Source of the DNA: a virus | Virus record (IMG/VR): IMGVR_UViG_3300035211_000099 | Coordinates: 1-40,874 of that record | Length of the DNA stretch: 40,874 nt | Direction: 5' to 3' (one strand) | In this document: positions 34,589 through 37,661 of the stretch, one piece after another | Numbering within the stretch: position 1 is the stretch's first letter | Layout: each line of letters begins with the position of its first letter | Program-made: the position numbers and the translations under genes | The notes under the pieces: model-generated | What the model was told of the DNA's origin: nothing | The model's database searches: none | What the model saw: the letters and a program-made list of their open reading frames with translations, nothing else

Positions 34589-34805
34589 TTCTTTTTTTAC
34601 CCCAATTATAAACACCCAGCCACCCCAACACAAATCCTTGTATAGATATAAGTAATGTGTCTGATATAATATCTATTCCTGTCATCTTCATTACAAAATT
34701 TATTACAGCTAGCAATAGCAGGAGCGATACCCAAAAATATGGAGGGTTAAACTTCCCTTCGCTATTACAAAAAAATGATTTTAATATTTCACAAATCTTT
34801 CTCAT
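34578..34805 (-). CDS. Small protein with two membrane spans (holin candidate)
   Basis: 75 residues. Hydrophobic spans at about 23-42 (YFWVSLLLLLAVINFVMKM) and 50-68 (LLISIQGFVLGWLGVYNW), a charged C-terminus (GKKRNGM) and a polar N-terminus. Class II holins have two spans, but no endolysin neighbour is seen. Overlaps the upstream gene by ATGA and the downstream gene by 11 bp. Confidence 0.55.
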   Translation of the reverse strand: MRKICEILKSFFCNSEGKFNPPYFWVSLLLLLAVINFVMKMTGIDIISDTLLISIQGFVLGWLGVYNWGKKRNGM

Positions 34806-35113
34806 GTTATTACATTACCTATGAGGAATTGAAACCGACCATTTAGACCCGCCTCGACGTAAAAAATATTGTTTGATCGCATTTTACCATCAAGGAATGG
34901 CTTTTTTGTCGCAAAAAATTTTAGTTCTTTTTTGCACGTTCTCAAATCAAATTGACTATAATCATAAGAAATTTTTGTCGTTTCCTTTATCGCCGTTTTT
35001 TCTACTATTTTGATTTCTGGATGCTGCGTAAAATATAGGTATGTAAAATATCCTGTTATGATATTTACGAAAAATAGACATAACAGGAAAATTATTTTGA
35101 TCTTTTTTTTCAT
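34802..35113 (-). CDS. Membrane-anchored hypothetical protein (103 aa)
   Basis: One N-terminal span (IIFLLCLFFVNIITGYFTYL) followed by a globular part with YDYSQFDLRTCKKELKFFAT. The layout (signal anchor plus periplasmic domain) could fit an inner spanin or an inhibitor of an envelope enzyme; neither is proved. Coupled to the two-span gene by ATGA. Confidence 0.55.
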   Translation of the reverse strand: MKKKIKIIFLLCLFFVNIITGYFTYLYFTQHPEIKIVEKTAIKETTKISYDYSQFDLRTCKKELKFFATKKPFLDGKMRSNNIFYVEAGLNGRFQFLIGNVIT

Positions 35114-37347: not shown

Positions 37348-37559
37348 AAAAAAAATTTGTCCCTGGCAGGATTCGAACCTGCACGCTAGTGTTAAAGTTT
37401 TATGCACACTTAAAAGAGCTAAAATATGTGCATCTTTTCGCATTATCTAGACTGAACCATATACTTATCTTGGTGTTCTAGCCGTCTTTACACGGTAGAT
37501 GGTATCTAACAGGAAATTCCGTGCTTCAACCTTGTGTCTACCAATTCCACCACAGGGAC
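37348..37559 (-). ncRNA. tRNA-Leu-like RNA with a ~128-nt insertion in the anticodon loop
   Basis: The 5' GTCCCTG (37553-37559) pairs perfectly with CAGGGAC (37359-37365). TG GTG GAATTGGTAGA CAC (37534-37552) matches the D arm of class II tRNA-Leu, and GCAGG TTCGAAT CCTGC (37366-37382) is a perfect T arm. AGGTT (37528-37532) can pair with AACTT (37395-37399) as an anticodon stem, but the loop is replaced by 128 nt with hairpins GCACGG/CCGTGT, TAGAT/ATCTA, CTAGA/TCTAG and ATGCACA/TGTGCAT. Eight U follow the acceptor. It is too small for a group I intron; an intron-bearing tRNA, a decoy or a new RNA are all open. Confidence 0.65.
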
Positions 37560-37661
37560 ATATCCTGCGTTGTTAACCCAGCCGCACCCCTGGAGTACTC
37601 GTGACCTGTCTAATTTTCCGAGTTGCCAGCGCAGTTAACGATTGCGCCTCGTTTTATTATA
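37560..37661 (-). ncRNA. Structured leader of the tRNA-like RNA with its promoter -10 box
   Basis: TATAAT lies at 37656-37661 with no good -35 box. Past it, CGAG (37648-37651) and GCGCA (37643-37647) pair with TGCGC (37629-37633) and CTCG (37619-37622) as a nested hairpin. Further on, ACTGCG can pair with CGCAG near 37565. The whole 37349-37700 stretch has no plausible gene and is structured RNA. Confidence 0.5.

Follow-up and report, generated by a model that had tools for sequence, protein, structure and literature searches.

The stretch of DNA analysed here, referred to as the window, is the whole IMG/VR entry IMGVR_UViG_3300035211_000099 (40,874 bases), and with its terminase, portal, protease, sheath and baseplate genes it belongs to a contractile-tailed phage. 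An RNA gene lies on its minus strand (37559-37358) between two genes of the same direction, one coding for a 90-aa protein of no known function and the other for a YopX-family protein. This tRNA-like RNA is present in a single copy in the window. Its parts and the elements next to it are, in the direction of transcription:

37656-37661, minus strand: TATAAT, a weak candidate for a -10 box immediately ahead of the leader, with no good -35 (direct reading)
37560-37655, minus strand: upstream leader that may form a hairpin CUGCG/CGCAG; it is doubtful whether it is part of the functional RNA (folding)
37553-37559, minus strand: acceptor stem, 5' strand GTCCCTG; 7/7 pairs with 37359-37365, and all seven pairs covary across the class described below
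37534-37552, minus strand: Leu-type D arm TGGTGGAATTGGTAGACAC, with U8, D stem GTG/CAC, A14, A15, G18, G19, U20 and A20a (direct reading)
37383-37533, minus strand: 151-nt insert replacing the anticodon and variable arms, ending in U48; no canonical anticodon loop possible, no long frame
37524-37532, minus strand: 5' strand of the predicted closing helix, AGGUUGAAG, pairing with CUUUAAC-A-CU (insert MFE)
37388-37397, minus strand: 3' strand of the predicted closing helix, CUUUAACACU (insert MFE and shuffle test)
37366-37382, minus strand: T arm GCAGG-TTCGAAT-CCTGC, GCAGGTTCGAATCCTGC; 5/5 stem, partial Rfam tRNA match
37358-37365, minus strand: acceptor stem, 3' strand CAGGGAC, and discriminator A73; no CCA encoded (direct reading)
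37348-37355, minus strand: run of eight T after the acceptor (and AA), a possible transcript end (direct reading)

The initial annotation had described a tRNA-Leu-like RNA with a structured insertion in place of the anticodon loop, and direct reading bore this out. The acceptor stem is paired in 7/7 positions and the T stem in 5/5, the D arm is of the Leu type (TG-GTG-GAATTGGTAGA-CAC) and has blastn matches to the D arms of phage tRNA-Leu, and the insert, from which no removal of an intron gives a U33, is unable to form a tRNA anticodon loop. The assignment to class II was not supported, as just 5 nt are left between the closing helix and the T stem if the 9-bp closing helix forms. It was also proposed that the RNA has a separate structured leader, which was neither upheld nor refuted: folding of the 95-nt leader gave -25.6 kcal/mol, no significant gain over shuffled sequence (z = -1.3); no leader like it was noticed in other members of the class. 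The TATAAT at 37656-37661 was absent from the output of the promoter scan, and the T8 run at 37348-37355 was not flagged by the terminator scan.

Folding of the insert predicted the hairpins TAGAT/ATCTA, CCGT/ACGG, CTAGA-ACCA/TGGT-TCTAG and ATGCACA/TGTGCAT, together with a closing helix of 9 bp and one bulge that is positioned where an anticodon stem would start (shuffle p = 0.013). An alternative to the closing helix is a pseudoknot of AGGTT/AACTT crossing GCTAG/CTAGC (shuffle p = 0.02), of which GCTAG/CTAGC, with its end 2 nt from the T stem, fits the register seen in part of the class but competes with the 9-bp closing helix. Close homologues of the window RNA were found neither by blastn against INPHARED phages, nor by an exact 31-base pattern, nor through its own acceptor and gap pattern or the neighbouring proteins. 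Having no such homologue, the inner structure of the insert is a prediction without covariation support, and two closing structures are possible. The folding energy of the RNA was unremarkable against shuffled sequence (z about -1.0 to -1.4), and forcing the cloverleaf arms cost 1.7 kcal/mol (-52.5 kcal/mol vs -54.2 unforced).

Several known kinds of RNA were considered for the locus. A functional decoding tRNA-Leu was rejected, as the 5-bp anticodon stem and 7-nt loop with U33 are missing, though the acceptor, D arm, T arm, A73 and A15-U48 are all present. ARAGORN reported no tRNA there by default; with introns allowed it returned c[37357,37560], a "tRNA-Met(cat)" with a 121-nt intron. It could be argued from this fit, which uses the stem AGGTT/AACTT, that the insert is an intron, small or degenerate, whose splicing leaves a normal tRNA, and a parallel is offered by a 193-kb phage contig (L080), where about 95 nt are inserted at the intact anticodon loop of what appears to be a tRNA-Tyr. 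However, U33 occurs in none of the eight possible 7-nt loops between AGGTT and AACTT and comes from no exon combination, an anticodon stem is found only at chance level across the class, no group I match appeared up to E = 10, and the inserts of the class (34-160 nt) are too short for group I introns and for the most part unrelated, all of which make a spliced tRNA very improbable. The specific case of a tRNA with a group I intron was rejected, with no covariance model match up to E = 10 and ligated exons that give no normal anticodon loop. The Rfam search gave nothing above threshold at the locus, the best match being the T arm alone (14.4 bits).

A tmRNA was likewise rejected, as Rfam (again up to E = 10) and ARAGORN gave no match and no tag frame or other long frame is present, which confirms the earlier view that the RNA is not tmRNA-like in this sense. 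There was no support for the insert as a coding frame; the first stop in frame 1 comes after 22 open codons. A looser relationship is conceivable, in which a leucine-charged RNA would act on ribosomes in the manner of tmRNA, with the insert supplying a short frame or ribosome-guiding pseudoknots. An insert placed where the anticodon would be, between tRNA-like ends, the pseudoknots in some inserts and the 22-codon open stretch in the window would all suit such an RNA, but no conserved tag or resume codon was seen, Rfam made no tmRNA call, inserts are as short as 34 nt and the identity is Leu, not Ala, and we hold it to be improbable.

IMG/VR was scanned for a Leu D arm followed by a T arm at non-tRNA spacing; acceptor pairing was required and ordinary tRNAs were discarded. 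At least 126 RNAs with a 7/7 acceptor and a full T stem were found, with inserts of 34-160 nt; after additions the 7/7 acceptor set came to at least 141, and a looser collection of scaffold inserts to at least 213. At least 112 members are non-redundant and have the same scaffold around unrelated inserts. The window RNA shares with them the Leu D arm, the T arm and a 7/7 acceptor enclosing an insert that is no anticodon arm, as well as A73 and a U48 ahead of the T stem. The suggestion of a new phage RNA mimicking tRNA was in this way supported and widened to a class of more than 100 RNAs. That the pattern scan yielded many further RNAs whose acceptors pair perfectly and covary puts the scaffold beyond chance. 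In the 112 non-redundant members all seven acceptor pairs covary, with 5-6 pair types per position, and 63 different acceptors occur. GCG/CGC forms the D stem in 102/112 and GTG/CAC in 9/112. Conserved positions are U8 (112/112), A14A15 (110/112), U48 (105/112) and A73 (93/112), although position 73 is G, C or T in some members and some D arms are of other types. The search pattern contained no acceptor pairs, D stem, U8, A14A15, U48 or A73; G18G19-U20-A20a and the T loop were part of it, so that conservation there is not independent and was not counted. The Levitt pair 15-48 joined A15 with U48 in 121 cases and G15 with C48 in 8, while 9 cases followed neither pattern (Fisher p = 2e-9 for the A/G x T/C table), in a set that takes in other D arms and a few probable intron-bearing tRNAs.

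In contrast to the scaffold, an anticodon stem at 27-31 was possible in 14.9% of the class inserts, vs 14.0% after shuffling and 91% of ordinary Leu-type tRNAs. A kept scaffold with an anticodon stem at chance level indicates that the elbow and ends of the tRNA are under selection and that the decoding part is gone. Conservation of the pairing in related phages had been proposed as a check; it was found for the scaffold, with strong covariation throughout the class, while the window insert had no close homologue with which it could be compared. The Rfam tRNA model recognised some of the shorter members, at 35-41 bits, as tRNAs containing a long insert, and some members are therefore probably annotated as odd tRNAs. 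A search by topic of open-access papers found no description of the class, which is apparently undescribed so far. Four members (L060, L106, L195 and L240) have an additional insertion within the D loop, ahead of the GGTAGACGC part.

In 32/99 short inserts, where about 10 would be expected, exactly 2 nt separate the T stem from the end of the strongest 3'-terminal helix, as in the register of class II variable arms. H-type crossing helices were over-represented (25% of inserts at p <= 0.05), and nested pairs were similarly enriched (26%). Compensatory changes were found between the related inserts L204 and L241 (GTAAC/GTTAC to GCAAC/GTTGC) and in two hairpins of another related pair, L146 and L254. 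The sequences indicate that the inserts are modular and differ between phages as well as between neighbouring copies. For instance, L011 and L123 lie upstream of a terminase gene in almost the same flanking sequence but have unrelated inserts, and the L123 insert recurs in unrelated contexts with a different acceptor (L207). This locus upstream of the terminase gene was seen with differing inserts in L011, L049, L123, L125, L210 and L237, some of which also have a second, smaller tRNA-like RNA (GGCTATG...CATGGCC) that is absent from the others.

Members of the class also occur in arrays of 5-12 copies, with 12 in L223 (7293-12187), 7 each in L284 (983-3290), L230 and L146, and 6 in L216. Copies within an array have an identical acceptor and T arm (AGTCAGG...ACAGGTTCGAATCCTGTCCTGACT) and differ in their inserts and sometimes in their D arms; the L284 array appears to be a tRNA cluster. 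When INPHARED isolates were searched for the AGTCAGG scaffold, the matches were ordinary tRNA arms only. In more than 80% of cases the members lie between co-directional genes with short gaps. No neighbour gene was common to the class, the flanks including terminase, thymidylate synthase, RecT-like and helicase genes (translations read by eye).

Such a setting raises the possibility that the scaffold is a processing module, which would recruit RNase P and 3'-processing enzymes and thereby cut polycistronic phage RNAs, or free and stabilise the cargo as a small RNA, charging being irrelevant. The position of the members between co-directional genes, the swapping of modular cargo, and the acceptor and T arm as the best conserved parts in arrays are all in its favour. 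Yet RNase P recognition requires neither a Leu-specific D arm nor the 15-48 pair, and both are kept. We consider this reading unlikely, but it is the main rival of the reading preferred below, action on ribosomes of the tmRNA-like kind being less likely.

In GTDB genomes the stringent pattern was found on 8 contigs only, four of Sphingobacterium and one each of Chitinophagaceae, Chlorobiaceae, a Clostridia MAG and Peregrinibacteria; within Sphingobacterium, 6/94 genomes of the genus carry one. A related pattern was found in 0/298 other Bacillota genomes (299 in all), and the reversed control was also empty. This near-absence from bacterial genomes indicates that the class is mainly viral. The members L265 and L266 are from Sphingobacterium prophages; L266 has terminase and portal-like genes next to it, and L265 has genes for phage recombination (translations read by eye). 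The two have a near-identical insert, and their acceptors (GGAGAGA/TCTCTCC in one, GGAAAGA/TCTTTCC in the other) differ by a compensatory change. The hosts are partly Bacteroidota, and the window and L263 suggest other hosts too.

tRNA genes are common phage attachment sites, and the window copy, being single, might be taken for a decayed or pseudo-tRNA, or for a tRNA fragment left by integration. This reading is contradicted by the two intact halves and by acceptors that covary class-wide, and the insert is not derived from an anticodon arm, copies have multiplied, and almost none of the bacterial genomes checked carry the pattern. Of all the alternatives decay is the one that we find hardest to credit.

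A review of tRNA identity bears on what the scaffold may do. The essential identity elements of E. coli tRNA-Leu are A73, A15-U48, G18G19 and A20a, contacts between the D and T loops are important, and U8:A14 is crucial for Aquifex LeuRS (PMC9976931). The anticodon and variable arm are dispensable for charging by E. coli LeuRS, a tRNA-Leu missing both being still chargeable, and the anticodon arm is needed for editing only (PMC9976931). The positions kept by the class match this published E. coli LeuRS set, and since the set is kept, leucylation would be expected. The explanation that we favour, with a probability of about 0.5, is that the window RNA is a phage tRNA mimic, in which a leucine-tRNA scaffold carries a self-folding cargo in place of the anticodon and variable arms, and which can be leucylated, does not decode and is probably a decoy or competitor. 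The RNA would be excised by RNase P and 3' processing, receive its CCA from the host enzyme and be charged by host LeuRS, yet would be unable to decode. Charged and with its elbow intact, it might then compete for host factors that grip the acceptor and elbow of tRNA, candidates being tRNA-attacking defence proteins and LeuRS itself. A decoy is favoured because a constant scaffold with fast-changing cargo resembles an arms race. The purpose is the least certain part of this explanation and is a guess. Conserved insert families exist, and this counts against a pure decoy, which would have no need of them; it suggests that the cargo does something of its own. More tentatively, phages of several bacterial groups might deploy leucine-charged, non-decoding mimics with exchangeable cargoes, up to a dozen per genome, that engage host defence or translation factors, and which would then be a new kind of viral RNA effector.

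Among known RNAs the nearest are tmRNA and the T4 species 1 RNA. With tmRNA (ssrA) the class shares tRNA-like ends, a long structured insert at the anticodon position and pseudoknots, but it has no tag frame, no Ala identity and no Rfam match, its D stem is full and its inserts are unrelated and hypervariable. The T4 species 1 RNA (RNA C, 139 nt; L314:1109-1247, minus strand) is a stable phage RNA within a tRNA cluster; it was confirmed by Northern blot as a late RNA (PMC9697503) and its function is not known (PMC3014915). It has a perfect T arm (CCGGG-TTCGAAT-CCCGG), an acceptor-like end and a long insert; however, only 5/7 of its acceptor is paired and it has no Leu D arm, so that its likeness is one of form and limited to the T arm and the acceptor-like end, and it is a possible remote analogue of the class. 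Theta ribozymes are also pseudoknotted phage RNA elements tied to tRNA genes, but they lie downstream of the tRNAs and not within the scaffold, and the paper describing them makes no mention of tRNA-like RNAs (PMC10879173). Group I introns in tRNA-Leu genes are, like the insert, placed at the anticodon arm of a Leu-type scaffold, whereas the window RNA has no group I core match, is too small and has no exon anticodon loop. Compared with bacterial tRNA-Leu itself, the acceptor, D arm, T arm, A15-U48, G18G19, A20a and A73 are the same, and the anticodon stem and loop and the ordinary variable arm are replaced by the 151-nt insert, which is predicted to fold.

The use of many phage tRNA genes is debated, and the function of the T4 stable RNAs C and D is still not known. 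Phages seem to make tRNA look-alikes that are unable to translate, and by keeping the Leu identity set and dropping the anticodon these RNAs set the charging and binding of a tRNA apart from its decoding role. Annotation programs miss such RNAs, as with the window copy, or score shorter ones as long-insert tRNAs, and the class may for this reason sit unnoticed in public data.

Two further observations were made in the course of this work. In L080, L033, L009 and L039, phage tRNA genes carry small inserts (about 48-95 nt) at the anticodon loop or close to it, some of these inserts sharing a hairpin followed by ACAGCAA; they are perhaps small introns of an unrecognised type. In the window, one CRISPR-type repeat (34806-34835, minus strand; Rfam CRISPR-DR2, 38.8 bits) lies at the 3' end of the ORF 34802-35113. 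Repeats with 2-3 mismatches to it were present in 8/398 Bacillota genomes, often as arrays, and this likeness in sequence points to Bacillota as a possible host of the window phage. The repeat may be a solitary unit, which would make it a candidate RNA anti-CRISPR.
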